A stretch of 64,000 nucleotides of DNA from an uncultured Atopobiaceae bacterium. GTDB taxonomy: Bacteria; Actinomycetota; Coriobacteriia; Coriobacteriales; Atopobiaceae. Positions within the stretch are counted from its first letter, which is position 1; each line of letters opens with the position of its first letter. Below are positions 47,165-56,026 of the stretch, piece by piece. The stretch lies in NCBI GenBank assembly GCA_944320385.1, contig CALUHH010000006.1, positions 1 through 64,000 on the forward strand, written 5' to 3'. The notes under the pieces were generated by a model, which saw nothing but the letters and a program-made list of their open reading frames with translations, did not search any database and was not told the origin of the DNA. The position numbers and the translations under genes are program-made.

Positions 47165-48064
47165 TTGGAGCTGTTCTTGCACGTGCTCGAGCACAGCGTG
47201 GGCGACACGCTGCGGCTCGTTCCCTTTCTGTTTGTCACCTACCTCGCGATGGAGGCGCTCGAGCACGCCAGCGCCGACCGCGTGCAGGCCGTCGTGGAGC
47301 GCTCCGGCAAGGCCGGACCCGTCGTGGGCGCGCTGCTGGGCGCCGTCCCCCAGTGCGGGTTCTCCGCGATGGCGGCCACGCTCTACGCGGGCCGCGTGGT
47401 CACGGTGGGCACGCTCGTCGCCGTGATCCTCTCCACCTCGGACGAGATGGTGCCCGTCTTCCTGGCGCACCAGGAGCCTCCGTCGCGCATGCTCGCCATC
47501 ATGGCCGCCAAGGTCGTCGTGGGCGTGGCGGTCGGCTTTGCGGTCGACGTCGCCCTGCGCCTCCTGCGCCGCGCGGGCGACGGCCACGCCCACATCCACG
47601 AGCTCTGCGAGCGCGCCCACTGCCACTGCGACGACGAGCACGCGGGTCACGACCACGGGCACGGCCGCTGGGCCGTGGTGCGCTCGGCGGCGGTCCACAC
47701 CGTCCAGGTGAGCGCCTGGATCCTCGCGATCACCTTTGCGTTTGGCCTCGTCATCGAGCTGGTGGGCGTTGACGCCCTCGCCACGGCGGTCGCCAACCAC
47801 CCCGTGAGGGCCACCTTCCTCTCGGCGCTCGTGGGCCTGATTCCCAACTGCGGCGCCAGCGTGGCCATCACCGAGCTCTACCTCGAGGGCGCGCTCGCCA
47901 CGGGCCCCATGCTCGCCGGGCTTCTCGCCTCGGGCGGCGTGGGCCTGCTCGTGCTCTGGCGCACCAACGTCGACGTGCGACAGAGCGCGCTCATCACGCT
48001 GTTCGTCTACGGCGTGGCCGTCGTCGTGGGACTTGCGGCCGGAGCCTCGGGTATCCTGTTCTAG
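47165..48064 (+). CDS. Putative heavy-metal permease (ArsP_2-like) with His-rich loop
   Basis: 299-residue multi-spanning membrane protein. Two halves repeat the motif GAVPQCGFSAM (~58-68) and GLIPNCGASVA (~227-237) in equivalent places, the pattern of the ArsP_2 / putative manganese exporter family. The central cytosolic or periplasmic loop (~141-167) is packed with His, Cys and Asp (HAHIHELCERAHCHC, then HAGHDHGHGR), a likely metal-binding segment. TTG start after CCGGAGGAAG. The substrate metal and direction are inferred from the family. Confidence 0.75.
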   Translation: MELFLHVLEHSVGDTLRLVPFLFVTYLAMEALEHASADRVQAVVERSGKAGPVVGALLGAVPQCGFSAMAATLYAGRVVTVGTLVAVILSTSDEMVPVFLAHQEPPSRMLAIMAAKVVVGVAVGFAVDVALRLLRRAGDGHAHIHELCERAHCHCDDEHAGHDHGHGRWAVVRSAAVHTVQVSAWILAITFAFGLVIELVGVDALATAVANHPVRATFLSALVGLIPNCGASVAITELYLEGALATGPMLAGLLASGGVGLLVLWRTNVDVRQSALITLFVYGVAVVVGLAAGASGILF

Positions 48065-50081: not shown

Positions 50082-50193
50082 CGGCCGGGGCCTGCCGTCC
50101 TTCTCGGCCCCCGTGGCCCGGTTCCTGACCTCCGCAGGGGGGTGGCGCCCCCCGCCCTGCTACACTGTGCCCAGTGACGACCGAAGGAGGATC

Positions 50194-52530
50194 ATGCTCA
50201 CGCCCCGCACCCAGCGCATCAAAGACGGCCTCTTTGCCCATCCGCGGCAGATCTCGCTCGAGCGCGCCCTGCTCTACCGCGAGAGTTACCTCCAGACCGA
50301 GGGCGAGCCGCCGGTCATGCGCCGGGCGCGTGCCTTTGCCCACCTCCTCGAGAACCACCGGATCGTGCTCGACGGCGACGACCTGCTCGCGGGAAACCGC
50401 ACGCCTACGCCGCGTGCCGGCGTGCTCTCGCCGGAGATGTCGCCCTACTGGATCATGGACGAGCTCGACCAGTTCCCGGTGCGCCCGCAGGACACCTTTG
50501 AGATGAGCGAGCAGGACAAGCGCACGTACCGCGAGGTGCTCTACCCCTTCTGGGCCGGTCGGAGCCTGAACGACTGGTACCGCGCCCACCGGCCCGCGGA
50601 CGTGGCGGACGCCGAGGCCGAGCGCGTCTTCGCCGTGGCGCAGACCGACAAGGGCCAGGGTCACATCATCGCCGACATCCCCGAGGTGCTCGACCGCGGC
50701 CTCGGCGCGCTGCTCGCCGACGTCAGCGCCCGGCGCGACGCCCGCCCGGGCAACGACTTCCTGCGCGCGAGCGCCCTCTGCGTCGAGGCGCTGATCGCCT
50801 ACGTGCGCCGCTACGAGGCCGTCGTGCGCGCCGCGGCCGAGGGGCGCGCCACCGAGGACGCCCATGCGGACGTGGCGCTGCCGTCCACCCCGGAGCGCGC
50901 GGCCGAGCTTGCGCGCCTGGCAGACGTGCTCGCCCACGTGGCGACCGAGCCCTGCCGCGACCTCTATGACGCCCTCCAGCTGACGTGGCTCGTCTGCGTG
51001 GCGCTGCAGCACGAGTCCAACGCGAGCTCCATCAGCCTGGGTCGCATGGACCAGTACCTCCTGCCGTACTGGCGCGCGAGCGTGGCGGCCGGCACGAGCG
51101 AGGCCGAGGTCCGCGAGCTGCTGCAGTGCTTCTACCTCAAGACCAACACGGTGGTCTTTGTGCGCTCCACCGAGAGCGCCCGCTTCTTCGCGGGCTTTCC
51201 CACGGGCTACAACCTCGTGGTGGGCGGTGTGGACGCCAAGGGCGACGACGCCAGCAACGAGCTCTCCGAGCTGCTGCTCGACCTCCAGCGCGACACGCGC
51301 CTGCCCCAGCCCAACCTCAGCGTGCGCCTGCACGCCGGCACGCCCGACGCGCTTCTGCACAAGGCGGCCGAGGTCGTGCGTCTGGGCGACGGGCTTCCGC
51401 AGTGCTTCAACGACGAGGTCAACGTCGAGTCCTTCGTGCGCCGCGGCGTGAACCTCCCCGACGCGCGCGACTACGCCGTCGTGGGCTGCGTGGAGCTCTC
51501 CATCCCCGGCCGCATGTACGGCCTGCACGACATCTGCATGTTCAACATGATGCGCTGCCTCGAGCTGGCCATGACGGCCCACCCCGAGGGCTTTGCAAGC
51601 TACGAGGACCTCGAGGCCGAGGTCGCGCGCACGATCGACCACTACGTCGCGCTCATGGTGCGCGGCTGCAACGTCTGCGACGAGGCGCACCGCGAGACCT
51701 CGCCCACGCCGCTGCTCTCAACGCTCGTGCACGACTCCCTCGAGCGCGGCGCGGACATCACCGCGGGAGGCGCGCGCTACAACCCCTCCGGCGTCCAGGG
51801 CGTGGGCACCGCCAACCTCGCCGACTCGCTCTACGCGGTCAAGAAGGCCGTCTTCGAGGAGGGGGCGCTCTCCTGGGGCGAGCTGCTCGCCATGCTCGCG
51901 CGCGACTGGTCCGGCCCGGGCGACGAGGTCTGGCGCCAGCGCCTGGTCAACCGCTACGCCAAGTACGGCAACGACGTCGACGAGGTGGACCAGATCGGCC
52001 GCCGCTTCCTCGCTCACTACGGCCAGGAGGTCGAGAAGTACGAGAACCCCCGCGGCGGCCACTTCCAGCCGGGCAGCTACACCGTCTCGGCCCACATCCC
52101 GCTCGGGGCCGCGGTGGGCGCCACGCCGGACGGGCGGCGCGCCGGCGAGCAGCTGGCCGACGGCGGCCTCTCGCCGATGGTGGGGCGCGACAAGAACGGC
52201 CCCACCGCGAGCCTGCTCTCGGTCTCAAAGCTCGAGAACGTGCGCGACACCAACGGGTCGCTGCTCAACGTCAAGTTCTCGCCGTCCACGCTGGAGGGCG
52301 AGGCGGGCCTCGCGCGCCTGATGGCGTACCTGCGCAGCTTCTGCCGCCTGGGCATCCAGCACATCCAGTTCAACGTGGTCGACCGCGCCACGCTGATCGA
52401 CGCCCAGGAGCACCCCGAGGACCACCGCGACCTCGTGGTGCGCGTGGCCGGCTACTCGGCGATGTTCGTCGAGCTCGCCCGCGCCATCCAGGACGACATC
52501 ATCAACCGCACCGAGCACGAGCTGGGCTGA
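50194..52530 (+). CDS. Glycyl radical enzyme (eliminase/decarboxylase class, substrate unknown)
   Basis: 778-residue pyruvate-formate-lyase-like enzyme for anaerobic radical chemistry. The thiyl residue Cys432 sits in VVGCVELSIPG, with Glu434 two places on; this C-x-E pair is the mark of dehydratases, lyases and decarboxylases (glycerol dehydratase, CutC, arylacetate decarboxylases) rather than pyruvate formate-lyase, which has CC. The radical Gly753 lies in RVAGYSA near the C-terminus. Active-site regions such as FNDEVNVESF and YGLHDICMFN are visible, and a Leu replaces the Pro common after the Glu. AAGGAGG precedes the ATG and TACACT (50161-50166) is a possible -10. Its activase follows after 4 nt. 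The substrate cannot be named from sequence alone. Confidence 0.88.
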   Translation: MLTPRTQRIKDGLFAHPRQISLERALLYRESYLQTEGEPPVMRRARAFAHLLENHRIVLDGDDLLAGNRTPTPRAGVLSPEMSPYWIMDELDQFPVRPQDTFEMSEQDKRTYREVLYPFWAGRSLNDWYRAHRPADVADAEAERVFAVAQTDKGQGHIIADIPEVLDRGLGALLADVSARRDARPGNDFLRASALCVEALIAYVRRYEAVVRAAAEGRATEDAHADVALPSTPERAAELARLADVLAHVATEPCRDLYDALQLTWLVCVALQHESNASSISLGRMDQYLLPYWRASVAAGTSEAEVRELLQCFYLKTNTVVFVRSTESARFFAGFPTGYNLVVGGVDAKGDDASNELSELLLDLQRDTRLPQPNLSVRLHAGTPDALLHKAAEVVRLGDGLPQCFNDEVNVESFVRRGVNLPDARDYAVVGCVELSIPGRMYGLHDICMFNMMRCLELAMTAHPEGFASYEDLEAEVARTIDHYVALMVRGCNVCDEAHRETSPTPLLSTLVHDSLERGADITAGGARYNPSGVQGVGTANLADSLYAVKKAVFEEGALSWGELLAMLARDWSGPGDEVWRQRLVNRYAKYGNDVDEVDQIGRRFLAHYGQEVEKYENPRGGHFQPGSYTVSAHIPLGAAVGATPDGRRAGEQLADGGLSPMVGRDKNGPTASLLSVSKLENVRDTNGSLLNVKFSPSTLEGEAGLARLMAYLRSFCRLGIQHIQFNVVDRATLIDAQEHPEDHRDLVVRVAGYSAMFVELARAIQDDIINRTEHELG

Positions 52531-52534
52531 CGGC

Positions 52535-53407
52535 ATGGAGACGTCCCCCGGCCAGGGCGCCGGCCCCACCGCCACGGTCACCAACGTCCAGCGCTTCTCG
52601 CTGCACGACGGGGGCGGCATCCGCACGGTGGTCTTCCTCAAGGGCTGCCCCTTCCGCTGCCCGTGGTGCTGCAACCCCGAGAACCTCTCGCCCGAGCCCG
52701 AGGTCTCGCTCAGGGAGCGTCTCTGCATCCGCTGCTCGCCGCGCCCGGGCGGGGCGCCGTGCGCCACGGCGCCCGAGGACTGCCCCACGGGCGCCAAGGA
52801 GCTGCTCGGCCGTGCGCGCGCCGTCGACGACCTCGTGGCCGAGGTCGCGCGCGACCGGGCGTTTTTCGAGGAGAGCGGCGGCGGGGTGACGGTCTCCGGC
52901 GGGGAGTGCCTGCTGCGGCAGGACTTCCTCTGCGCCTTCCTCGAGGCGTGCCGCGCCGCGGGTATCCCCACGGCCGTGGAGACCACGCTCGCGCTGCCGC
53001 TCGCGGACCCGGCGCGGCTCGTCGCGGCCTGCGACGTCCTTCTCGTTGACTTCAAGATCGCCGACCGGGCGCGGAGCCTCGCGGTCACGGGGATAGACCC
53101 GGACGTGCGCGACGCCAACCTCCGCGCCGTCCTGGCCCTGGGGGCGCGCGTGGTGGCGCGCATGCCCGTCATCCCCGGCTTCACCGACGACGAGGCCTGC
53201 GTGGCCGCCAATGCGGAGCGCATCGCCGAGCTGGGCGTCGGCCGCGTGGACGTGCTGCCGTTCCACCAGCTGGGGGAGGGCAAGTACGACTCGCTCGGCC
53301 GCGCCTACGACCTCCGCGGCGTCCCCCAGCTCTCCGACGCCGACGTCGCGGGCGTGGTCGCGCGCTGCGAGGCGGCCGGGCTCCGCGCCGTGGCGCGCGG
53401 GGAGTAG
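52535..53407 (+). CDS. Glycyl-radical-enzyme activating enzyme (radical SAM)
   Basis: Installs the glycyl radical on the upstream enzyme. 290 residues; FSLHDGGGIRTVVFLKGCP leads to the radical-SAM cluster CPFRCPWC (C-x3-C-x2-C). The inserted ferredoxin-like segment has only four cysteines (CIRC...C...C, ~67-88), enough for one extra cluster where many activases have two. GGGVTVSGGE and PVIPGFTD are family motifs. It is the second gene of a two-gene operon. Confidence 0.92.
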   Translation: METSPGQGAGPTATVTNVQRFSLHDGGGIRTVVFLKGCPFRCPWCCNPENLSPEPEVSLRERLCIRCSPRPGGAPCATAPEDCPTGAKELLGRARAVDDLVAEVARDRAFFEESGGGVTVSGGECLLRQDFLCAFLEACRAAGIPTAVETTLALPLADPARLVAACDVLLVDFKIADRARSLAVTGIDPDVRDANLRAVLALGARVVARMPVIPGFTDDEACVAANAERIAELGVGRVDVLPFHQLGEGKYDSLGRAYDLRGVPQLSDADVAGVVARCEAAGLRAVARGE

Positions 53408-53438
53408 CGCCGCGAGCCCGCGTCCTTCTCGCCCTGTC

Positions 53439-53587
53439 TTGGGGGGTATGTACACCCTGCCTTTAGGGTATGTACACCGCCCCCGTTTAGGTGGTCTACG
53501 TTTGCGCAGGTAGATGAGCTGCCGAGAAGAGCGTGCGGCCCGGGAAGTGTACATACCCTCGGAGGCGGTGTACATACCCTCCAAGGG
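53439..53587. repeat. Inverted-repeat element with four GGGTATGTACAC copies
   Basis: GGGTATGTACAC occurs twice in direct orientation (~53445 and ~53466) and twice inverted (GTGTACATACCC at ~53548 and ~53569). The outer parts (CTTGG... / ...CCAAGG) also pair. The arms of ~45 nt enclose ~60 nt with a small CTAC/GTAG stem. No gene lies between the activase and the convergent glycosyltransferase. Confidence 0.75.
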
Positions 53588-55804: not shown

Positions 55805-55923
55805 GGGACGCCTGCCCCGGGTGGGACACTTACCCCGGGTGGGACACTTACCCCGGAGGTGTCTGTCCCACCAAATGGGACAGACACCTCCGGGGTAAGT
55901 GTCCCACCCGGGGCAGGCGTCCC
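55805..55923. repeat. Large inverted repeat with one duplicated arm segment
   Basis: The outer arms (GGGACGCCTGCCCCGGGTGG... and complement) and an inner stem GGAGGTGTCTGTCCCA / TGGGACAGACACCTCC form a near-perfect hairpin of ~119 nt. The segment GGGTGGGACACTTACCCC is present twice in the left arm and once in the right, a recent local duplication. The core belongs to the GGGACA family. Confidence 0.85.
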
Positions 55924-56026
55924 AGCGTCCTGCAAAAACGTAAGAGGTGCCCCTGCGTTCGCCGGCCAGGGTCGCAAGGCGTACAATAAAAAGCTGCCGA
56001 GAAGACCATGGAGAGGGGATTGGCCC

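Follow-up and report, generated by a model that had tools for sequence, protein, structure and literature searches.

The window, the whole stretch of 64,000 nucleotides analysed here, contains an intact gene pair encoding a PflD-type glycyl radical lyase and its activase, and the sequence evidence makes it most likely that the pair acts on 1,5-anhydromannitol-6-phosphate. The lyase sits well within the PflD group and is unremarkable as such, and the reaction has been described before in E. coli and in Streptococcus; the only unusual point is the detached position of the lyase, as the gene of the partner aldolase lies elsewhere in the genome. The host is a gut-type anaerobe of the family Atopobiaceae. 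The interest of the locus rests on the pattern of aldolase sharing described below, not on the lyase itself.

Gene pair

The following features were identified.

50082-50193, forward strand: upstream gap of 112 bases, without the DeoR-type regulator gene in the window
50184-50190, forward strand: ribosome-binding site AAGGAGG, 3 bases 5' of the ATG
50194-52530, forward strand: PflD-type glycyl radical enzyme, 778 aa (translation, family profiles, tree, residue comparison)
51487-51489, forward strand: codon of Cys432
51493-51495, forward strand: codon of Glu434
52450-52452, forward strand: codon of the radical Gly753
52535-53407, forward strand: radical-SAM activase of the PflC type, 290 aa (profile match and Cys motif)

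Translation of the lyase frame revealed no internal stops, and the gene is intact. The profile search matched Pfam PFL-like (PF02901) to residues 4-638 (8.7e-173) and Gly_radical (PF01228) to residues 657-759 (1.9e-32); the C-terminal glycine-radical domain with RVAGYSA, together with the active-site cysteine, places the protein among the glycyl radical enzymes. The first-pass annotation had recognized such an enzyme with a Cys432-x-Glu434 motif, and both residues, as well as Gly753, are the same in all 26 PflD-type sequences compared. The activase gene directly follows the lyase gene, the arrangement taken as a mark of the PflD clade. Its product matches the radical-SAM family TIGR02494 (259 bits, cut-off 174) and carries the CxxxCxxC motif at residues 38, 42 and 45; Cys64, Cys67 and Cys83 are conserved too. 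Glycosyltransferase genes are located on either side of the pair, and the earlier remark that no transporter or pathway gene is adjacent holds for the window.

Assignment to the PflD group

In a sequence search of solved structures, the best matches of the lyase were E. coli PflD (8yjo, 909 bits) and 8id0 (859 bits), followed by a glycerol dehydratase (559 bits). Similarity of this degree lies far outside what chance would give (2.3e-272). The PDB title of 8id0 is "PflD bound to 1,5-anhydromannitol-6-phosphate in Streptococcus dysgalactiae", that of 8id7 "YbiW in complex with 1,5-anhydroglucitol-6-phosphate". A fold search placed these same two PflD structures, 8yjo and 8id0, at PDB ranks 1 and 2; the model used was built from 26 sequences (pTM 0.86, mean pLDDT 80) and has low confidence in the glycine-radical domain.

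The group was assigned by a tree and profile searches in place of a similarity network. The maximum-likelihood tree had 54 rows: the window lyase, 12 of the 24 other PflD-type matches, 31 of the best 80 named loci, E. coli PflD and YbiW, and eight others, the S. dysgalactiae sequence being absent. The window lyase falls within the PflD clade (45 rows, including E. coli PflD), the YbiW clade (7 rows) stands apart, and both clades have full support. Moreover, 54 class positions were defined, at each of which six reference PflD sequences agree on one residue and four YbiW sequences on a different one. The lyase has the PflD residue at 53 of them, the sole exception being residue 571. The sequence GCVELSIPG, for which the enzyme had been called unassigned and perhaps a new group, turned out to be the motif of the characterised PflD group, E. 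coli PflD included, while Streptococcus PflD reads GCVETSIPG at this position. The first-pass annotation had named clear clustering within a characterised group as grounds for abandoning its proposal, and such clustering was found in the best matches, the fold ranks and the tree.

The score against the NCBIfam model of E. coli PflD, PRK09983, is below the cut-off (1031.5 vs 1109). As other members of the clade score 1071 (another Atopobiaceae member), 1117 (Erysipelotrichales) and 1245 (Peptococcaceae), this cut-off cuts through the PflD clade; the lyase was therefore filed by clade and not by PRK09983.

Predicted reaction and pathway genes

Following the PflD and YbiW lyases, the pathway proceeds through the aldolase FsaA or FsaB and then GldA. 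The cleavage step itself is described in a 2025 review, according to which, in E. coli, YbiW acts on 1,5-anhydroglucitol-6-phosphate and PflD on 1,5-anhydromannitol-6-phosphate, both giving 1-deoxyfructose-6-phosphate (PMC12441222, citing Ma et al., 2024, 10.1021/jacs.4c07718). For the window lyase, a mechanism can be proposed from the PflD product and glycyl radical chemistry. First, the activase, with SAM and its iron-sulfur cluster, would form a radical on Gly753, to be passed to Cys432. Second, the Cys432 thiyl would remove hydrogen from C2 of 1,5-anhydromannitol-6-phosphate. Third, the C1-O5 ring bond would break, the ring oxygen leaving C1, and return of the hydrogen would yield 1-deoxyfructose-6-phosphate. 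The fructose-6-phosphate aldolase encoded beside the YbiW-type lyase of the same genome probably cuts this product into glyceraldehyde-3-phosphate and hydroxyacetone; reduction of the hydroxyacetone by a GldA-like dehydrogenase may then give 1,2-propanediol. Among the papers listed by literature searches for a PflD-type lyase in coriobacteria, none dealt with it.

The genome containing the window (94.8% complete) encodes three glycyl radical enzymes: a pyruvate formate-lyase (PFL) on contig 19, the window lyase, and a YbiW-type enzyme on contig 7, which scores 896 bits to E. coli YbiW and 613 to the next characterised family. The aldolase gene lies 53 bases 3' of this YbiW-type gene. Its product, about 38% identical to the aldolase usually found beside PflD, scores below the TIGR00875 cut-off, as does the PflD-side aldolase of genome G026. 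A second aldolase-like gene, on contig 2, was rejected as a candidate, as it adjoins a likely split transketolase (named from sequence) and probably encodes a transaldolase. The GldA relative is 53% identical to its E. coli counterpart and scores above the cut-off of the glycerol-dehydrogenase subfamily and below that of GldA itself. A search of this genome for a Frw-type PTS EIIC, run without a positive control, found none; five mannose-type EIID genes are present.

Aldolase placement in Atopobiaceae

The survey covered 104 Atopobiaceae genomes, each at least 90% complete, genes less than 4 kb apart on a single contig being considered neighbours. PflD was found in 32 genomes, YbiW in 49, and both in 24. 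Of these 24 two-lyase genomes, 12, including the genome of the window, have the aldolase next to YbiW alone and 11 have it next to PflD alone; in one (G040, where it lies at a contig start) it adjoins neither lyase, and in none does it adjoin both (Fisher 1e-5, relatedness ignored). Counted by genus, the YbiW side is represented by four and the PflD side by nine, the genus of the window occurring in both; nine of the 12 YbiW-side genomes belong to one genus. An aldolase is present in all 57 genomes with either lyase and in 22 of the 47 others, a comparison that ignores relatedness and in which some of the 47 hold lyase fragments. Within the genus of the window, a YbiW sequence, partial in 4 of the 15 matches, was found in 12 of 12 genomes with PflD and in 3 of 19 others, again with relatedness ignored. 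E. coli K-12, by contrast, retains two aldolases, fsaA and fsaB.

Two nearly complete genomes have YbiW-type matches of only 296 residues with an adjoining aldolase (G019, contig C9, 56881-57771; G029, contig C4, 18739-19629), perhaps representing truncated genes.

The simplest reading is that the two lyases make a common product for a single aldolase, so that only one copy of its gene is kept, and we infer that the PflD and YbiW lyases of the genome containing the window share a single aldolase. For the family at large, we lean, with some reserve, towards a modular breakdown of anhydrohexitols, in which glucitol and mannitol lyases feed one shared aldolase whose gene lies beside either of them and not both; the window pair would then be a lone mannitol branch dependent on the glucitol locus. 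If so, many coriobacteria would consume 1,5-anhydroglucitol and its epimer. The either-or placement also backs, from an independent comparative angle, the published claim of a common product of PflD and YbiW.

The radical enzyme once labelled unassigned can now be placed in a known pathway, which offers Atopobiaceae annotation a better name than "formate C-acetyltransferase". 1,5-anhydroglucitol is a polyol of clinical relevance, as its 6-phosphate is harmful to neutrophils in GSD Ib (PMC12441222). Given this relevance, it is useful to know which gut bacteria might degrade 1,5-anhydroglucitol or its epimer.

Alternative substrates and functions

Several other readings were considered. First, the detached lyase in the genus of the window might have kept the fold and clade of PflD and drifted to another phosphorylated sugar alcohol. 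Loss of the neighbouring aldolase, accompanied in most members of the genus by loss of the regulator, would suit such a drift, as would the failure of the search without a positive control to find a Frw-type PTS in this genome and the score below the PRK09983 cut-off. It nevertheless appears unlikely, given the retention of all class positions except residue 571 and the presence of the same-product aldolase in all surveyed Atopobiaceae genomes with the lyase.

Second, the enzyme might act like YbiW on the glucitol epimer, 1,5-anhydroglucitol-6-phosphate, either in place of the mannitol form or in addition to it. Gene neighbours cannot separate the two substrates, as both lyases give the same product according to the review (PMC12441222); yet a YbiW-type enzyme is already encoded elsewhere in the genome (896 bits to E. 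coli YbiW), and the active cysteine of the window lyase is surrounded by PflD and not YbiW residues, which makes this reading quite improbable.

Finally, two functions can be dismissed on family scores. One is a decarboxylase of indoleacetate, as in Olsenella, or of another arylacetate. The first-pass annotation had raised indoleacetate as a possibility, and the host is indeed related to Olsenella, but the lyase scores 357 bits with the indoleacetate decarboxylase model (NCBIfam NF033718, cut-off 1100) and 292 with that of 4-hydroxyphenylacetate decarboxylase (NCBIfam, cut-off 1150). The name "formate C-acetyltransferase" belongs to the best NCBIfam model of the lyase and would be assigned automatically, but the score for true PFL is 129 bits vs a cut-off of 994, and the genome has its separate PFL on contig 19. 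The enzyme is of the lyase or dehydratase type, and the first-pass annotation was right to set it apart from PFL. CutC, HypD, HpsG/HpfG and 4-hydroxyphenylacetate decarboxylase were likewise rejected (all at most 500 bits vs NCBIfam cut-offs of 1000-1150), as was the isethionate sulfite-lyase IslA (340 bits to 7kq3 vs 909 to PflD).

Genomic site and nearby repeats

In the genus of the window, 31 genomes were searched for this site, and 29 of them had a flanking glycosyltransferase gene. In 18 of these 29 the two glycosyltransferases are adjacent, 5-109 bases apart; in 10 the lyase and activase lie between both, or beside the single one in the sequence examined; and in one (G026) aldolase, activase and lyase are found beside the remaining glycosyltransferase. 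A DeoR-type regulator gene occupies the position of the upstream gap in a close relative (G007), and one adjoins the lyase elsewhere in Atopobiaceae.

Scanning the window for Rfam families and tRNA genes gave no matches, and a promoter scan found no sigma-70-like site. A permease gene (47183-48064) scores as "arsenic efflux protein" NF037962 (345 bits, cut-off 100).

An intergenic palindromic element (53438-53585) carries GGGTATGTACACC twice in direct and twice in inverted orientation (four matches when a single mismatch is allowed, against an expectation of 0.02) and resembles a small mobile, MITE- or REP-like repeat. The same element occurs twice in the related locus L108 (11270-11406 and 13684-13821). 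A second palindromic element (55805-55924), with GGGACACTTACCCCGG and arms of 49 nt that are 94% complementary, occupies the intergenic gap in which L108 seems to carry the first.

Comparison with known systems

Among the best 80 of 148 confirmed named PflD loci, with flanks of up to 8 kb, some of them ended by contig ends, the activase was found in 78, a fructose-type PTS EIIC in 60, the aldolase in 58 and gldA in 25. The gene order in E. coli K-12 is gldA-fsaB-ptsA-frwC-frwB-pflD-pflC-frwD, and the usual order in other Atopobiaceae genera is DeoR-type regulator, lyase, activase, aldolase. One genome (G015) carries PflD twice: the detached copy lies on contig 3, and the second, on contig 26 (L058/L120), is accompanied by a full fructose-type PTS and an aldolase. 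Gfo/Idh/MocA oxidoreductases adjoin PflD in G051 and G040 (L055, 5902-6966 and 10997-11986; L056), and one of them is distantly similar to 1,5-anhydro-D-fructose reductase (4koa), a possible source of anhydromannitol. A link to this reductase was set aside as a weak pointer, 4koa being only the second-best solved match (90 bits) after dimeric dihydrodiol dehydrogenase (101 bits).

The closest known system is PflD itself (8yjo, 8id0), with which the window lyase shares the fold, an adjacent PflC-type activase and 52-54% identity, as well as the E. coli PflD motifs QTDKGQGHII, ESNASS and GCVELSIPG; it differs by about 12 extra residues near position 220-232. Unlike the enteric PflD operon, the window pair has no adjoining PTS, aldolase or gldA, and does not constitute an operon of that kind. 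YbiW, the 1,5-anhydroglucitol-6-phosphate lyase, has 39% identity to the window lyase and represents a sister pathway, with the same product as PflD according to the review (PMC12441222); in the genome of the window, its copy has the aldolase behind it. In the B12-independent glycerol and propanediol dehydratases, the core Cys-x-Glu aligns with the window lyase, and so do the positions of His157 and Asp446; these enzymes differ in reading GCVEP where the lyase has GCVELSIPG, the distinction from the GCVEP groups that the first-pass annotation had correctly drawn, and score at most 559 bits to it.
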